NCBI GenBank assembly: GCA_040757335.1 | Contig: JBFLXB010000020.1 | Location: 1 to 64,000 of the forward strand | Origin: Nitrospirota bacterium | GTDB taxonomy: Bacteria > Nitrospirota > Nitrospiria > 2-01-FULL-66-17 | Direction: 5' to 3' | DNA length: 64,000 nt | Shown here: piece by piece, positions 49,878-63,304 of the stretch | Layout of the letters: every line of letters starts with the position of its first letter | Numbering within the stretch: position 1 is the stretch's first letter | Position numbers and translations under genes: made by a program | Notes under the pieces: model-generated | The model's input: the letters and a program-made list of their open reading frames with translations, nothing else | Database searches by the model: none | Told to the model about the DNA's origin: nothing

Positions 49878-49922
49878 TGGTTGCGGGGGTGAGATTTGAA
49901 CTCACGACCTTCGGGTTATGAG
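49878..49922 (-). tRNA. tRNA-Met(CAT) 3' half, truncated at the anticodon loop
   Basis: The minus strand reads anticodon loop CTCATAA, stem CCCGA, variable AGGTC, T-arm GTGAG/TTCAAAT/CTCAC, acceptor CCCCGCA, discriminator A and CCA. The bases 5' of the loop (plus-strand GGCGTT...) do not pair with the stem, so the 5' half is missing. This is a typical attachment-site half of an integrated element; the terminator is retained. Confidence 0.75.
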
Positions 49923-50242
49923 GGCGTTGGGACCTAAAATCGCAGTTTCTTGATAAGTGGCCTGGTTTCCCGATTCACTACGAAAATCAAGGCGCTTCGC
50001 ATTTATATCTGGCTCGATCGCGTCCGGCTGTTTCGATCGATTTCGACGTGTTCAGACACAATTTAGGCACAGCGCAAGCTGATCCATAAAACATCCGCGT
50101 CACTGTTCCTTGGGTCGATCCGGAGCGGTAGTCCTTCTGCTGACCGCCTAACCCACATGTGCAGATCGGAGTGGCTGGCAACGGGCATGGGTTCGCGTCC
50201 GTCTGAGGGCTGCGGAACGTCGGCGCGGGACGATGTCTCGGT
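49923..50242. other. Region next to the tRNA-Met scar, no gene seen
   Basis: I see no coding frame of note. The position directly beside the attachment-like tRNA half fits the edge of an integrated island whose integrase has been lost or lies outside the window. Confidence 0.4.
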
Positions 50243-50689: not shown

Positions 50690-51838
50690 TCAGCCCTTCA
50701 CGAGACCAGACTTTTGAAGTCTTCCCAGGAAGCTGGGCTTCGTCGCGTGCCGCTCGTAGAGCGCCTGGATGCGTACTCGGGTGTCTGAGCCGCGGCCGTC
50801 CCGCTGCGCGAGCTCCTGAAGGTCCTTGAGGAGCCTGACGGCTTCGTCGTAGTCCTGCGGCCGCCGCATCGCGATCAGGATATCGACCTTGTGCCAGGTT
50901 TCGTCCTCGCGCTTGGCCAAATCGTCGAGATACCGCCTGCGACGTTGAGTCTCTTCGCGCTCACGGCGGCGTTGCTCGCGGGCAGCCCGTGCGGCCTCGA
51001 CGCGCCTGCGCGCGTCGGCGCGTTGTTTGGCGGCGGCCAGGAGCTGCGCGACCGTCCGCGGTTTCGGGGCGCCGCCAGCGCGGAGGGCCTGGCGGCCCTT
51101 CTGAAATCGACGCAGCAGCTCGGCTTGGACCGGGGCCTGATCCCCCGCTGCGAGTCGTACGAGGAATTCGGTTTTGTCGGAATCGGGTAGCGTCTGGACC
51201 CAGCGTGCGAAATCCTTCGATGACACCGCTCCGCTCAGATCTGGGCTGTGTTCAGCGGCGACGGCGATGAGGTCACCGTCGATTCGCAGGAACTCCGCGA
51301 ACGCCGTCAGCGGCGCGGTCACCTGGCGCAGGCCCGGAGGAACCGGCGGCTCGGTCGCGTGGTGGTCGGGCGCCCCACGCTGCACACCGAGCAGCCACGC
51401 GAGGTAGAGTGCCCGGTGGTCACCGCTTTCAAGATCCCGACGCAAGGGGATGAGCGAGGAGAGCCAGCCGCTCCCGTCGTCTGTCCACTCGCCTTCCTCG
51501 TCGTCCGAACAAAACTCGAGAATGACGAACTCGCCGCTGGCCCGAACGGCGGCCGACTCGCTCCGGCAGTATTGCCTGGCGGTCCGGAGATCGAACGACG
51601 TCTTGGGGACGCGCAGCATCAGTTCGTGCGTGCCCCAGTTGGCCAGAAAAAGGAACGCATCAAAGTACCGTTCCATCCACCGTGACGGGTTGCCCTTGAA
51701 ACCGCCCCATTCGTAGTGATTGACGAAGCGGGTGGACGTGATCGTGGCGCGCGTGGAGTACGCGCGCAGTTCGCGCATCTCGCGCTCGGTCAGCGGCCGA
51801 TCGATGGCTTGGAACTCGTAGTACTGGTACTCACTCAC
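50690..51838 (-). CDS. Conserved protein of the primase-helicase operon
   Basis: This 382-residue protein begins MSEYQYYEFQAIDRPLTERE and MRELRAYSTRATITSTRFVN, a strongly conserved start in a widespread uncharacterised family. The middle is globular with acidic loops (EFCSDDEEGEWTDDGSG). Residues ~265-310 are a highly charged Arg/Glu/Ala coiled coil (RRRVEAARAAREQRRREREE). Relatives occur near helicases and SWIM zinc-finger proteins. It is the third gene of the operon 54808-50690; a role in the same defence or repair process is inferred. Confidence 0.65.
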   Translation of the reverse strand: MSEYQYYEFQAIDRPLTEREMRELRAYSTRATITSTRFVNHYEWGGFKGNPSRWMERYFDAFLFLANWGTHELMLRVPKTSFDLRTARQYCRSESAAVRASGEFVILEFCSDDEEGEWTDDGSGWLSSLIPLRRDLESGDHRALYLAWLLGVQRGAPDHHATEPPVPPGLRQVTAPLTAFAEFLRIDGDLIAVAAEHSPDLSGAVSSKDFARWVQTLPDSDKTEFLVRLAAGDQAPVQAELLRRFQKGRQALRAGGAPKPRTVAQLLAAAKQRADARRRVEAARAAREQRRREREETQRRRRYLDDLAKREDETWHKVDILIAMRRPQDYDEAVRLLKDLQELAQRDGRGSDTRVRIQALYERHATKPSFLGRLQKSGLVKG

Positions 51839-51947
51839 AGGTATCCTCCATGCGGTGACCCACTAGGGCCAAGTCCGAAAGGCATCGATCCACTCCGCGC
51901 CTGCGGGTAGTCGTGTGGGGGAGGAGGTGTGTGCCGCCCGTTAACCG

Positions 51948-52349
51948 TCACCCACCGCGCCGCCAGCGTCGATACGCGGCGATCCATTCGGCTCCCCGGG
52001 GTGGCGGCGAAGGCAGGGGTAGATCCACGACCGGGATCCGCTGGCGCTCGCGACCGCGTCGGCAGAACGCCACGATCTCGTCCGCATCGTTGAAATCCAC
52101 GCGCTCCACCGTCACGGTTGCGCCGAGGACCGTTGTCTCGAACGGGACCTGAAGGTGCTCCTGGATCATGGTGAGTAGGCCCGTCAGTTCCTCGGCCTCG
52201 TTATAACAGTCGACCGTGGCTTCCTCGATCAGTTTGCGCAGGCGTGTTCCGGTCGGGGCCGGCCCGCGGGTTGCTGCGCCACCTGAGCGGAGGGAGCTCT
52301 TTGCCTGTCGCGCCGTTGGCGCGAAGCGGGTTCTGGGTTTGGGGCTCAT
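51948..52349 (-). CDS. 'Calcium-binding protein'-type small protein in the helicase operon
   Basis: ATG 52349 overlaps the helicase stop (ATGA). The 133-residue product has a basic N-terminus and the conserved core LRKLIEEATVDCYNEAEELT, GLLTMIQEHLQVPFETTVLG, VTVERVDFNDADEIVAFCRR and the motif RIPVVDLPLPSPPPRGAEWI. Databases often call this family 'calcium-binding protein', but I see no EF-hand. It is coupled to the primase-helicase gene. Confidence 0.7.
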   Translation of the reverse strand: MSPKPRTRFAPTARQAKSSLRSGGAATRGPAPTGTRLRKLIEEATVDCYNEAEELTGLLTMIQEHLQVPFETTVLGATVTVERVDFNDADEIVAFCRRGRERQRIPVVDLPLPSPPPRGAEWIAAYRRWRRGG

Positions 52350-54808
52350 GAGTGTTCCGTTTCGGTGTATCCGATGGCTCGGTAACCCCGCAGGCGTTTC
52401 TCGAACATCCGAGCGAGCATGGGAACCTGGCGGTCTACGTAATCGACGATGCGCACCTCGGTCTTGCCGACACGCAGTCGGTGCAGCCGGCCGGCATACT
52501 GCACCAGCGTGCCCTTCCACGAGATGGGCATGGCCAGGAAGAGCGTGTCCAGCCGCGCGTCGTCGAAGCCTTCCCCGGCGTAACGCCCCGTCGCCAGCAC
52601 GAGGCGCTCCTCATCGCCCGGGAGCGTGGCAAGCCGCGTCCTCATTTCCTCCCGGGCTTTGCCCGTCATCCCGCCCTGCAACACGATCAGATGGCGGGTG
52701 AACGGGCGGAGCCGAGTGGCCAGGTAGTCCAAATGGTCCTTGCGCTCTGTCAGCACCATGGGTGTCCGGCCTTCGTGCAGAGCGCTGATCACGTCGTTGA
52801 GGATCAATTCGTTCCGCGCCTCGTCGGTCGCGAGCTGCGCGTACAGCGCCTGGATGCCACGCGTCGGTTCGGAATCGACCCCGTGAAACACCGTGTCCCG
52901 GACGATCAACCGGTGAGCGAAGGGCCGGCGCGCCGCGTGATGCTTCGGATCGACCACGAAGCGAGCAGGCCCCAACTGCATCTGGGCGATGGGGTGGTGT
53001 CCATCCCGGCGTTGGGGTGTGGCCGTGAGTCCGGTCACGAAGCGGGCCTTGACCTCGGAGAGCACGCGCTCGAAGGAGACCGCGGGCACATGGTGGCACT
53101 CATCCACGATCACGTGTCCGTACCCGGCGACCAGATCATCCACCCGCCCTTCCCGGACGAGGCTCTGGATCATCGCCACGTCGAGCTGGCCAGTGGGCGC
53201 GCGACGGCCGCCGCCGATCTGGCCGATCGCCTTGGGCTCGATACCCAGGAACAGGGCCAGTTGCGCGACCCACTGGTCCAAGAGCGGACGCCGATGGACC
53301 AAGACCAGCGTGCTGCGACCACGTTGCGCGACGAGGTAGGTGCCGACTACCGTCTTCCCCACGCCTGGTGGCGCGACCAAGACGCCGAGATCGTGGGCGA
53401 GGAGGGCGTCCGCCGCTTGGGCCTGGACCGGTGTCAGCGCGCCGTGGAATGTCCACCTGGCCTCGTCACCCATGAGCCGCTGATCGTCAACCGTGAGCGA
53501 GATCTCGTAGGCGCGAAGCAGGTCTTCCAGCTCTCCGAGGCAACCGCGAGGGAGTGCGAGATGCTCGGGAAACTCCTCCGCACAGGTGATTACGCGGGGC
53601 GTGGTGACCGTGGAAAGCCGCATCTGCTGCTTTTTGTAAAACTCGGGATTCTGGAATGCCGCGAGGCGCTTGATCTGGTTCAGCAGCGCGGGCGGACAGC
53701 CTGCTTTCTCCACGAAGAGGCGCTGGCCCAACACGGCTCGGATCGATGTGGGAAGCGTTCCCGTGATCTGCGCGGCGAGCGGGCGACCGGATGGGGGCCG
53801 CGCCCACGGCTCGTGGTCATCGTCCTCCGGCGCCTCGGCCATGCGCACGCCGATCACGCGCCCCTGGTGCGTGGCCTCTCGGGCGATCAGCTCGACGGCC
53901 TGCGGATCGATCCGCGGGATCGAGGCGAGCGCGGCCCATTGGTCCTCGTCCGGGTAGGGGACCAGCTGCTCGTCGAGGAACACCGTGTGGCCGCGCTGGC
54001 GCGGCTCGTGTTGAAACGGCAACGCGATCAAGTTCCCGAAGCCGCCGCGCGGCATGGTGTCCTGGTTCGGAAACAAGCGGTCATACGACTCCATGCTGAG
54101 TTCATGGCGCCGCGCCATCGTGTCCGTGATCAGGGCGCAGCCCATCGCGCGGGCAGTGCGAGCGGCGACGGGTGCTGCGAAAAAGAACCAGACATGCGCG
54201 CCGCACCCCGATCGCGAGCGCTCCACCGCAACCGAGAGGCCCGCATGCCGGCAGGTCTCCCGAAACGCGGCGACATCCTCGGTCCAGGAACGCTTGTCGA
54301 AATCCGCGGCGAGGAACCAACAGGTCTCATCAGCGAGGAGGGGGTAGACGCCGATGACGTGACGGCCCTGGAGGTGATCGAGGATCGCCTGATCCGAAAC
54401 CGGGATGAACGCCTGGTTGGGGCACTCGCCGCATTTGACTCGCGGCTTCTCGCAGACCCCACGCACCCACTCATTGGAACAAGCCGGCGCGTATCCCGTT
54501 TTGCCCGACTTGGCGTTGGTCCACAGCTTGGGATAGACATCCTCCCGCCCACGAAACCGCTGTCGAAACAACGCCACCTTCTCAAGAGGCGTCGTGGGCG
54601 CCGCCGGGGGTGGGAGGACGGGCAACCGCACGCGGATGGCCAGCTCGGCATCGCACGACGCCAGGTCGGCGTTGAGAGAGTCGAGTCGCGCCTTCGTCGC
54701 CTGCCGCGCTCGCTCCAACTCGGCAAGCTGCGCTTCTTCCTTGGCGATGGCTTCACGGAGCGCGTCCTCGCGTCTGGGGGTTGGCGCAGTCACCTGTCCT
54801 CGTTGCAC
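52346..54808 (-). CDS. TOTE-type archaeo-eukaryotic primase fused to SF2 helicase
   Basis: This is an 820-residue fusion. Residues 14-55 are coiled coil. Residues 75-330 are an archaeo-eukaryotic primase-type domain with a Cys cluster (CSNEWVRGVCEKPRVKCGEC), catalytic DFD (Asp169, Asp171) and GCGAHVWFFF (His205). Residues 450-815 are a DEAD/DEAH-like helicase: Walker A APPGVGKT (479-486), DECHH (569), TATPQRR (595), and C-terminal QYAGRLHRLRVGK. TOTE conflict systems carry this primase with nucleic-acid enzymes and are thought to act against foreign DNA. It is the first gene of a three-gene operon. Confidence 0.88.
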   Translation of the reverse strand: MQRGQVTAPTPRREDALREAIAKEEAQLAELERARQATKARLDSLNADLASCDAELAIRVRLPVLPPPAAPTTPLEKVALFRQRFRGREDVYPKLWTNAKSGKTGYAPACSNEWVRGVCEKPRVKCGECPNQAFIPVSDQAILDHLQGRHVIGVYPLLADETCWFLAADFDKRSWTEDVAAFRETCRHAGLSVAVERSRSGCGAHVWFFFAAPVAARTARAMGCALITDTMARRHELSMESYDRLFPNQDTMPRGGFGNLIALPFQHEPRQRGHTVFLDEQLVPYPDEDQWAALASIPRIDPQAVELIAREATHQGRVIGVRMAEAPEDDDHEPWARPPSGRPLAAQITGTLPTSIRAVLGQRLFVEKAGCPPALLNQIKRLAAFQNPEFYKKQQMRLSTVTTPRVITCAEEFPEHLALPRGCLGELEDLLRAYEISLTVDDQRLMGDEARWTFHGALTPVQAQAADALLAHDLGVLVAPPGVGKTVVGTYLVAQRGRSTLVLVHRRPLLDQWVAQLALFLGIEPKAIGQIGGGRRAPTGQLDVAMIQSLVREGRVDDLVAGYGHVIVDECHHVPAVSFERVLSEVKARFVTGLTATPQRRDGHHPIAQMQLGPARFVVDPKHHAARRPFAHRLIVRDTVFHGVDSEPTRGIQALYAQLATDEARNELILNDVISALHEGRTPMVLTERKDHLDYLATRLRPFTRHLIVLQGGMTGKAREEMRTRLATLPGDEERLVLATGRYAGEGFDDARLDTLFLAMPISWKGTLVQYAGRLHRLRVGKTEVRIVDYVDRQVPMLARMFEKRLRGYRAIGYTETEHS

Positions 54809-55122: not shown

Positions 55123-55368
55123 TTACTTGGGGTGAGGAATGATGGCGAGAATGTGGTACGTGTCCCCGTGGATCTCGAAATAGAACCGATAATTGCGGTC
55201 AACGCGGGCCTGCCACACCCCCGCACGCTCCGCGTATTTTTTGGCTTTCAGTGAAGGGTGCCGGAGATTCATAAGAAGAAAGCCAAGTTGTTTATCAAAC
55301 TTGGCTTTCAGGTCTTCAGCGAGCGCGGCATACTGCTCGGCCGCCCGAGGGGAGAAAAGGGCTCTCAC
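55123..55368 (-). CDS. RelE/ParE-superfamily toxin
   Basis: This 81-residue protein begins MRALFSPRAAEQYAALAEDL. It shows the RelE-like core with AERAGVWQARVDRNYRFYFE and closing strand YHILAIIPHPK. Arg and Tyr residues of the V-RxxYRFY segment are present, consistent with a ribosome-dependent mRNase or gyrase inhibitor. It overlaps the antitoxin by 4 bp. Confidence 0.85.
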   Translation of the reverse strand: MRALFSPRAAEQYAALAEDLKAKFDKQLGFLLMNLRHPSLKAKKYAERAGVWQARVDRNYRFYFEIHGDTYHILAIIPHPK

Positions 55369-55661
55369 GCGGTGCGGTGGCGCCTGGCGGGCGTGCTGGC
55401 CTTTGCACGAGGGGACTTCGCGACGCGCCGCAGGGCGCGGGAGGCTTCCCCAGCGGTTTTAAACGGGCCGAGGTACTCGCCTGCCTTGATTTGCTCGCGC
55501 GCAAGATCGATCTCGCGGTTCACGAGGTCTTTAGGGGAGAGTTCCAAAACGCCGTTTTTGATCTCGGCTTCGAGAAGATCGCCCACCTTCAGGGCAAGGC
55601 GCGCGCGGAGGTTCACCGGCACCGTTATTTGGAACTTATCTTTGACCTTGACGATCGACAT
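55365..55661 (-). CDS. AbrB/MazE-type antitoxin
   Basis: This 98-residue protein begins MSIVKVKDKFQITVPVNLRA (AbrB swapped hairpin), then LALKVGDLLEAEIKNGVLEL, then a basic helical tail (AGEASRALRRVAKSPRAK). It pairs with the RelE-like toxin by a 4-bp overlap. The AbrB domain should bind the operon's own promoter. Confidence 0.85.
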   Translation of the reverse strand: MSIVKVKDKFQITVPVNLRARLALKVGDLLEAEIKNGVLELSPKDLVNREIDLAREQIKAGEYLGPFKTAGEASRALRRVAKSPRAKASTPARRHRTA

Positions 55662-58994: not shown

Positions 58995-59487
58995 CTGTCG
59001 TCCACTCATGCGAACAGTGTACGCTCCAGCACGAAATCAAAGCCACTTGGGCTCTGTTCTCATAATGTTCTGGGTCGGGCGTGATGAGAACCGGGAGGAG
59101 CCTTGGCAAGGACGAGGAGATGAATGCGAGACGGCCGATGCAGGCTATCGGTGACTCGATCTCCGTGGGGCAGACGGGCATGGCTATTGACACCGTGTTA
59201 AACGCCATACTCCTCGACCCCTTGGCCGCTATCCGGGCAACCCCAAAGTTGCGCACTCGTCTTGTTCATGATTCATGAACGACGTTGATCAGTGAACAAA
59301 TGCGAGGAACCGCACTCCGTAGGCCCTCGGAGAACCCCTTCACTGAGGAGTTGTTCTTGACCCTCGAACCCGCAACGGGCTAAGCTGGGCCTCTACTTCT
59401 TTTATAAGGGGGCTTGGCGTTTGTCTGAAAGCCGTCCCAACTCCGCAACCCGCTCTGGGTTGCGGCACCCACGTGTACCGAGGAGAC
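58995..59487. other. Upstream region of the restriction-modification operon
   Basis: Contains the second copy of the TTGACACCGTGT-type element (59187-59201, one mismatch from palindromic) within 59146-59230. The short frame there reads SISVGQTGMAIDTVLNAILL, followed by DPLAAIRATP, possibly a degraded coding piece. A promoter for hsdM must lie between here and 59487. Nothing else is identified. Confidence 0.4.
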
Positions 59488-61044
<1,557 letters not shown>

Positions 61045-61073
61045 GGCAAGGAAAGGTTATGGAGGTTCCCACT

Positions 61074-61946
61074 ATGAGTGCTAGCTGGGCACTGAACTCG
61101 ACTATTTTTGCAGATCTTGATCTGAAGGGGTTAGTTGGTGGCCAGGGGCTTGGTTTTCATCGGCTCATAGCGCAGGTGGATGTAACCACCCACAGCAAAC
61201 AACCTGGAGAGGATGTCGCGGTCACGAATATCGGCGGTGAACTGCGGGTACGTGGAAGGAGCGAACCGGAACATGTTGTGGGTTACATGAGGCGACAGGG
61301 CCAAGAGGTGCCCCTTGCAACTGGTCAATATACGTATAAGACAAATGTCCCGCTTGAAATTGAATTGGACGCAAGACGCGTCGACGCAATAGAGCGGGTC
61401 AGGCTTGGAGGAGATTTATTTTTCAGCCTAAGTCTATTTGGAGTGGCCCATGGTGGCCGCGATAGGATCACACAGCCAGTGCCGGTCACACTTCAATACA
61501 GGGCCAATCAAGGCACCTGGATTGAAATACTTGGACAAATGGGCTATCGGAAAACAATTCTCTTGGAAATTCCGGTACTAGAAGACGACGTCAACCCACA
61601 GTTTCCGCAGGCAGCGGAGTATCTTCAAACAGCGCAGACGCATATGCTGCGCGGGCATTTCCGGGATGCGGTGGGTGCATGTCGGGATGTCATGGAATCG
61701 TTGTCAACAGTTTTGAACGACGATGGAGTCCAACCGCCCGAGGCGATCAAATCGTGGTTCGAGGGCACGCGGGCGATGGGTAAAGAAGAACGGCTTCGGA
61801 TCGTGCGGAGGGCACTCAAAATATTGACACATCCGGCGCGACATGCGGATGAGGTCTCGACTGCAATTGAGTGGGGGCCGGCTGACGCGAGGGGGGCCAT
61901 AGTCATGGCGGCGGCTCTGCTCAATGTGGCGGGCGAGAGGAAATGA
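61074..61946 (+). CDS. Uncharacterised accessory protein between hsdM and hsdS
   Basis: Possible starts are GTG 61041 (overlapping the hsdM stop), ATG 61059 and ATG 61074; the last has GGAGG at good spacing. The ~290-residue product has an N-terminal beta-rich half (STIFADLDLKGLVGGQGLGF, YTYKTNVPLEIELDARRVDA). The C-terminal half is helical (YLQTAQTHMLRGHFRDAVGA, RIVRRALKILTHPARHADEV) and resembles HEPN- or abortive-infection-type C-terminal domains in pattern only. Base composition here is lower in GC than hsdM, consistent with separate acquisition. Confidence 0.6.
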   Translation: MSASWALNSTIFADLDLKGLVGGQGLGFHRLIAQVDVTTHSKQPGEDVAVTNIGGELRVRGRSEPEHVVGYMRRQGQEVPLATGQYTYKTNVPLEIELDARRVDAIERVRLGGDLFFSLSLFGVAHGGRDRITQPVPVTLQYRANQGTWIEILGQMGYRKTILLEIPVLEDDVNPQFPQAAEYLQTAQTHMLRGHFRDAVGACRDVMESLSTVLNDDGVQPPEAIKSWFEGTRAMGKEERLRIVRRALKILTHPARHADEVSTAIEWGPADARGAIVMAAALLNVAGERK

Positions 61947-62035
61947 GCAGGTTCGTGCCCAACTTCGCGTAAAGACTGCATGGTCGCTGACGCACGATGA
62001 AGAAGCGATCGCCCGTAACCTGCACGAGTTTGCGT

Positions 62036-63304
62036 ATGGGGAGTGAGTGGCCAGTTAAGACCATAGCCGAGTGCGCATCTGCCGAACCGTATTCAACCCA
62101 GATCGGGCCTTTCGGCAAAGCACTGATGGCCGATGAATACACCGAGATCGGAGTACCGGTCCTGCGCGGCGTGAACGTCAATCGTGGCCGTTTTCACGAT
62201 GACGATTTCGTCTTCATCGACAATAAAACGGCGGATCGACTCAGCAAGTTCGAATCCTTCCCAGGAGACGTTCTTCTGGTCCACAAAGGGACGCTTGGCC
62301 AAATCGGGTTAATGCCGACCAAGCGTAAATATCCCCGCTACATCATGGGCAACAGCATGATGCGTGTACGGTGTGATCCGGCGAAGCTCTTGCCTGAATA
62401 CCTCTACTATTGGCTGTCTTCGCCCGAGGGCCAACACTATCTATTCAGTCGCGTCTCCCAGGTAGGCGTCCCGCAGATACAAACGCCGCTGACTACATTA
62501 CGGCAAGCCGCTCTACCTGTTCCTCCTCTCCCCGAGCAACGCGCCATCGCCCACATTCTCGGCACGCTGGACGACAAGATCGAGCTGAACCGGCGACTGA
62601 ATGAGACGCTGGAGGCGATCGCGCGGTCGCTCTTCAAGTCGTGGTTCGTGGACTTCGACCCGGTCCGCGCCAAGGCCGAAGGCCGCGACCCCGGCCTGCC
62701 CAAACACATCGCCGACCTGTTCCCTGATTCCTTCGAGGACTCGGAGCTGGGAGAGATTCCGAAGGGATGGGAGGTCGCGAGTTTGGGTGACGTGATTGAT
62801 CTCGCCTACGGAAAGGCATTGAAGGAGGAGGCTCGGCTAGCCGGACGAGTCCCCGTCTTCGGCTCTAACGGTCAGGTTGGCTGGCACAACGAGAAGTTGG
62901 TCGATGGGCCCGGAATTATCGTCGGGCGCAAGGGCAACCCTGGGATCGTAACGTGGGCGTCAACAGATTTCTTCGCCATTGACACCACGTTCTACGTCGT
63001 GCCGAAGGCTAAGTGCGACAGTCTCTATTTCCTGTACTACGCGCTCCAAGACCATGGCCTCGCGTCGTTTAGCGCCGACTCGGCCGTCCCCGGCCTCAAT
63101 CGGAATATGGCCTACATGAGCAGACAACTGGTCCCATCACCTACTGTTCTGCGTGCGTTTGACAGCCACATCCGGCCCCTTTTTCAGCGTTACCATGGCA
63201 GCAATGAGCAATCTGGTGCCTTGGCCGCCCTGCGCGCCGCGCTGCTACCGAAGCTCATTTCTGGCGAACTGCGGGTGAAGGAGCGAATCGCCACGGAGGT
63301 CTGA
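62036..63304 (+). CDS. hsdS: Type I restriction specificity subunit (HsdS)
   Basis: The likely start is ATG 62036 (GSEWPVKTIAECASAEPYST); an ATG at 61997 is possible. The 422-residue protein has two target-recognition domains. The first ends in LRQAALPVPPLPEQRAIAHI, followed by central helices (LGTLDDKIELNRRLNETLEA, FKSWFVDFDPVRAK). The second starts GEIPKGWEVASLGDVI, and the C-terminus (LAALRAALLPKLISGELRVK) forms the second helix. It determines which two half-sites are methylated and cut. Confidence 0.93.
   Translation: MGSEWPVKTIAECASAEPYSTQIGPFGKALMADEYTEIGVPVLRGVNVNRGRFHDDDFVFIDNKTADRLSKFESFPGDVLLVHKGTLGQIGLMPTKRKYPRYIMGNSMMRVRCDPAKLLPEYLYYWLSSPEGQHYLFSRVSQVGVPQIQTPLTTLRQAALPVPPLPEQRAIAHILGTLDDKIELNRRLNETLEAIARSLFKSWFVDFDPVRAKAEGRDPGLPKHIADLFPDSFEDSELGEIPKGWEVASLGDVIDLAYGKALKEEARLAGRVPVFGSNGQVGWHNEKLVDGPGIIVGRKGNPGIVTWASTDFFAIDTTFYVVPKAKCDSLYFLYYALQDHGLASFSADSAVPGLNRNMAYMSRQLVPSPTVLRAFDSHIRPLFQRYHGSNEQSGALAALRAALLPKLISGELRVKERIATEV

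Follow-up and report, generated by a model that had tools for sequence, protein, structure and literature searches.

The window analysed here, a 64,000-nucleotide stretch of a Nitrospirota bacterium contig (JBFLXB010000020.1), carries a three-gene operon built around a known class of primase-helicase: gene A, which encodes the primase-helicase, stands with gene B, which encodes a small CcbP-type protein, and gene C, a member of an unannotated family. We interpret A-B-C as a horizontally mobile, modular system that processes nucleic acids, most likely a conflict module, in which B and C would form a sensor/adaptor pair and A would be a recruited primase-helicase effector, and assign this reading a probability of roughly one half. 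All three genes are encoded on the minus strand, A first, then B and C: A at 52346-54808 (820 amino acids [aa]), B at 51948-52349 (133 aa) and C at 50690-51838 (382 aa). A and B overlap by 4 bp (ATGA, 52346-52349), with the start of B sitting within the stop codon of A. C follows after a gap of 109 bp and has a GTG start codon preceded by GGAGG. Promoter and terminator scans gave no signal above chance level. A preliminary description of this DNA had claimed a three-gene operon, and its open reading frames, strand, order and coordinates are all as described; the clustering of the genes is far beyond chance when observed and simulated counts are compared (discussed below).

Gene A is, as first described, a fusion of a primase (DFD, His205) and an SF2 helicase. 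Residues 76-306 match the AEP-TOTE primase-polymerase domain (PF22548; E = 9e-96, 320 bits against a cut-off of 27), residues 458-800 match SF2 helicases of the ResIII/XPB/RadD type (ResIII E = 1.1e-19, with a ResIII/DEAD match as well), and an N-terminal coiled coil is visible by inspection. The primase motifs (DFD at 169-171, which includes D169 and D171, and SGxGAHxW with His205) and the helicase motifs (Walker A at 479-489, DECH at 566-575, LTATP and motif VI) are all intact, as had been claimed for the catalytic residues, and nearly all of them recur in 21 homologues whose loci also contain C, the helicase motifs showing minor deviations. No nuclease domain was detected in A by Pfam profile search. 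Structures have been solved for XPB/Rad25, RadD and the AEP chains 7nqd/7nqf, to which A is related in sequence. The genome of the window encodes a second AEP-TOTE domain (G000 C9:54783-55262; L002, L103), which is fused to PriCT_1, lies near a probable tyrosine integrase (judged from sequence) and looks like an element primase.

The product of gene B passes the cut-off of the CcbP family PF11535 narrowly (22.3 bits against 21.5), and its relatives score 25.4, 27.7 and 22.7 bits (range 22.7-27.7). To this extent, the overlapping gene is indeed of the 'calcium-binding' type proposed for it. Acidic positions D47, E53, D85 and D109 are kept. The structure predicted for B is of moderate confidence (pLDDT 73.9, with 82-93 in the core) and consists of four strands with flanking helices; when it was searched against the PDB, no significant match was found. 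A PDB profile search relates B to CcbP weakly (E of approximately 0.006-0.009 over 32-33 residues). A TAL-effector match in the PDB profile search was rejected as an artefact because it is made of many repeats scoring 1-4 bits each. In Rhodococcus and Micromonosporaceae, a Helicase_C_3 protein of approximately 445 aa adjoins or lies near B or the B-C pair (L015:6270-7616, L036:1638-2969, L071:5856-7205).

Gene C matches no family in Pfam, NCBIfam or PADLOC, and a scan of one genome per species identified at least 548 relatives. Across 77 homologues the initial MSEYQ does not vary, which bears out the strongly conserved start attributed to C. The charged coiled coil attributed to it corresponds to a charged helical region, helices 263-309 and 311-324 of the predicted model. 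This AlphaFold model is confident (pLDDT 94.6, pTM 0.85) and comprises an N-terminal alpha/beta domain to approximately residue 112, helices, the long helix 263-309 and a helical tail; among PDB and BFVD (viral) structures, nothing matched it at E 0.001 or better. The modelled fold is apparently undescribed, although a comparison with PDB and BFVD does not prove a 'new fold'. The tail (approximately 311-382) is also found at the end of DUF6880-type proteins: these TPR-type proteins (PF21810) share the C-terminal helical tail with C but do not have its MSEYQ N-terminal domain. A DUF6880-type gene is sometimes located close downstream of C (L030, L035, L060, L086).

The distribution of C is patchy. 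Several copies contain stop codons, no convincing C was found among 57 relatives of the same class as the window genome, and C is often solitary, as on S. meliloti pSymB, where it lies between cyclic glucan genes. Phage cargo is unlikely, as only a single relative of C was found among 2.9 million viral contigs and neither B nor C has a credible match in PHROGs. An association of C with SWIM zinc-finger genes was not borne out among its recurrent neighbours. The functions of both partners had been called undescribed, and this agrees with the lack of a Pfam, NCBIfam or PADLOC model for C and of a system model for B or C. The link of this family to a primase-helicase makes hundreds of 'hypothetical proteins' accessible to testing.

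Among the 80 loci closest to the window C (out of at least 548 relatives), the genes found most often beside C are B and A: B adjoins C in 27 (2 of these as fragments), an intact A is located at most 3.5 kb from C in 19, and A remnants lie beside C in four further loci (L018, L058, L067, L093). A survey of 201 Micromonosporaceae genomes, in which neighbours were defined as lying within 3 kb, covers 35 A, 46 B and 54 C loci. A neighbours B or C in 24 of its 35 loci and B is by C in 36 of 46, while 16 of the 54 C loci have neither A nor B. The chance expectation from simulation is 0.009 A-C neighbours, and Fisher p values by genome, with kinship ignored, are 4e-14 for A-B and 7e-12 for A-C. The preliminary description had asked whether the partner genes occur mostly without the primase-helicase; this is the case for C, which has A within 3 kb in 21 of 54 loci, but not for B, which is with A in 22 of 46. 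The 274 Planctomycetota genomes surveyed contain approximately 19 strong A loci and 15 C loci: 2-3 of these A loci are by C and 2 by B (0.002 expected), C is with A in 2-3/15, and 16-17/19 strong A loci have no nearby C. Distances among A proteins correlate with those among C proteins (Mantel r 0.77, 0/2000 permutations), to which shared vertical descent could contribute. By these counts, A is genuinely associated with B-C without being obligatory: the core consists of B and C, which mostly form a coupled operon, A joins them as an optional third gene, and the majority of C loci lack a nearby A. As A, B and C recur jointly in distant bacteria, they probably work together.

The A>B>C order is also present in L030 (Planctomycetota) and L041 (a deltaproteobacterium); in L023 (Myxococcota) and L029 (Phycisphaera), a family 10 gene stands between B and C, and the B of L029 is a fragment. 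The same 4-bp A/B overlap is found in the window, L023 and L041, consistent with the tight coupling claimed at the outset. In a tree of A, the proteins of the window and of the planctomycete, myxobacterial and deltaproteobacterial A>B>C loci form one clade, which also includes L121, where A>B runs off the contig end. The nearest branches to this clade are L119 (where AbiE genes accompany A and C is 3.3 kb off) and L118 (with a family 10 gene directly before A). In a separate actinobacterial clade, A lies beside B-C or beside a family 3 gene and C, in divergent, downstream and convergent arrangements. Independent A-C associations occur elsewhere in the tree, in actinobacteria (with several gene orders) and in L091 (A>C), L012 and L014. 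Small genes also replace B beside C, namely family 3 (12 loci) and family 10 (4 loci); these (for example, L083:3989-4309 and L023:9297-10004) have no Pfam match and overlap or abut the start of C. In L041, a YhcG-type PD-(D/E)XK nuclease gene (L041:5957-7138) has a 4-bp overlap with the start of A and is a possible nuclease partner.

An element integrated at tRNA-Met probably carries the window operon as cargo. The 3' half of a tRNA-Met gene (49880-49922, 43 bases, minus strand) is the probable attachment site and the only copy in the assembly. A relative of the same family (G001) has an intact tRNA-Met gene and a second, half copy, and the flank of this half copy shares 188 bp (77% identity) with window positions 49885-50072, a related element end (L132/L133). 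Such an arrangement is what an integrative element typically leaves on entering a tRNA gene. The element is visible from the tRNA-Met half to the contig end at 64540, a span that includes neither its other end nor its integrase, and the operon begins 0.7 kb inside it. Genes for a ParE-type toxin and a MazE/AbrB-type antitoxin (55123-55661, with a 4-bp overlap) immediately precede the operon and, like it, are on the minus strand, and the type I restriction genes HsdM and HsdS (59473-63304, plus strand) belong to the same element; HsdR would fall past the contig end. Further element genes encode a TacA1-like antitoxin, an AAA_14/DUF4143 ATPase and a HicB-like protein. In the G001 element, a HigBA-like pair (recognised by eye in translation) occupies the place of A-B-C, so the operon looks like cargo and not element core.

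As a conflict module, A-B-C could operate as follows. As a complex, B and C would detect DNA that is foreign or damaged and bring in A, which would then open the duplex with its SF2 motor and prime or polymerise on it; this would block replication of the invader or expose the invader to nucleases. This reading is supported by the retained A/B overlap, the gene order kept across phyla within one A clade, the independent A-C associations, the co-occurrence in Micromonosporaceae, the correlation of A and C distances and the conserved catalytic motifs of A. It is also supported by patchiness (the 57 relatives without C, the A remnants and the stop codons in C) and by toxin-antitoxin, AbiE, YhcG and type I restriction surroundings; AbiE genes and a YhcG PD-(D/E)XK nuclease are neighbours in other A loci. 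Counting against it, B and C are in no defence library (PADLOC models match neither), PADLOC matches show no clear excess at distances of up to 3 kb from C over those beyond 5.5 kb (the two are similar apart from AbiE), C is often alone, A itself lacks a nuclease domain, and the Mantel correlation could in part be shared descent. The operon had been called a working defence or repair system: the intact residues, coupling and co-conservation are confirmed, and a role in defence, for which PADLOC offers neither models nor clear enrichment, is plausible but unproven. More tentatively, C may sit at the centre of a modular conflict system as its adaptor, with small partners (B, family 3 and family 10) and effectors that are both interchangeable. 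The AEP primase-SF2 helicase would be one such effector, and the effector step would be nucleic acid synthesis on the target and not cutting; this broader scheme is speculative.

Among the alternatives, A-B-C could be an accessory of DNA repair or replication restart, in which A would serve as a PrimPol-helicase for repriming or gap filling, its partners B and C would be loading factors, and there would be no anti-invader role. The helicase of A resembles the repair helicases XPB and RadD, AEP polymerases elsewhere have roles in repair and in the tolerance of damage, and some copies are in chromosomes with no visible island, such as L029, beside methylmalonyl-CoA mutase genes. However, so patchy a distribution, with remnants and stop codons, is unusual for housekeeping repair, as are the probable integrated element of the window and mobile neighbours such as the serine recombinases of L030, and we regard this explanation as unlikely. 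It is similarly doubtful that A serves the mobile element itself, through replication, transposition support or maintenance, with B-C as stability or regulatory cargo. Such a role would suit the location of the window operon inside a probable integrated element, and plasmids of alphaproteobacteria commonly carry solo relatives of A, which follow TniQ or TniB-TniQ transposition genes directly (L106, L108); against this, the A proteins encoded with B-C branch apart from the Tni-linked ones, Pfam scans found no transposition genes beside the window A-B-C, and the HigBA-like pair of G001 makes the operon look like cargo. That the three genes are unrelated cargo sharing islands by chance or through a common insertion hot spot is improbable: C is often without A, and most strong Planctomycetota A loci have no nearby C, but start-stop overlaps and gene order across phyla are conserved, A is found by B-C in several independent arrangements, and co-occurrence is far above the chance expectation.

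The conflict module that we favour shares individual parts with several known systems. B is like CcbP of Anabaena (Alr1010; PDB 2k2v, 2p0p, 3urg) in that it passes the PF11535 cut-off with its acidic positions kept; CcbP, however, is known from cyanobacterial calcium signalling and not from a primase-helicase operon, and a CcbP-type protein is now placed in a context far from that signalling. A is of the same AEP family by sequence as the CRISPR-associated primase-polymerases (NF040561; PDB 7nqd/7nqf), but it scores 76.7 on NF040561 against a cut-off of 200 bits, and no cas gene or direct-repeat array was found at 45-64 kb of the window; a CRISPR link was rejected on these grounds. The DEAD/DEAH helicases of alphaproteobacterial plasmids align over 90% of the length of A and are approximately 55% identical to it, but they belong to a different A clade and have no adjoining B or C in the four loci read. 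Two plasmid loci, of Sinorhizobium and Sphingobium (L106 and L108, respectively), each have a solo primase-helicase behind TniQ or TniB-TniQ, with a 4-bp overlap in L108, and possibly represent a Tn7-like element with an AEP helicase. The libraries and papers searched contain no account of A in combination with B and C, an absence from those sources and not proof of novelty.

A further comparison is with TOTE conflict systems, whose name stands for TPR, OB, TBP and Effector (PMC12458937, citing Aravind et al. 2022). As in these systems, the primase domain of A is of the Pfam AEP-TOTE family and is fused to an SF2 helicase. Unlike them, the window has B and C in place of the TPR-OB (cold-shock) and TBP genes: a Pfam scan of the genes called at 48.5-63.3 kb identified no TPR or CSD domain and no TBP-like protein. 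Because TPR-OB and TBP genes are absent near the operon, strict membership, as defined in PMC12458937, was rejected and the operon is not filed as a TOTE system; the term 'TOTE-type', used in the preliminary description, suits the primase domain (PF22548) and not the system. A may nevertheless work like a TOTE effector, and its link to the C family also bears on the role of AEP-SF2 fusions outside CRISPR and TOTE contexts.
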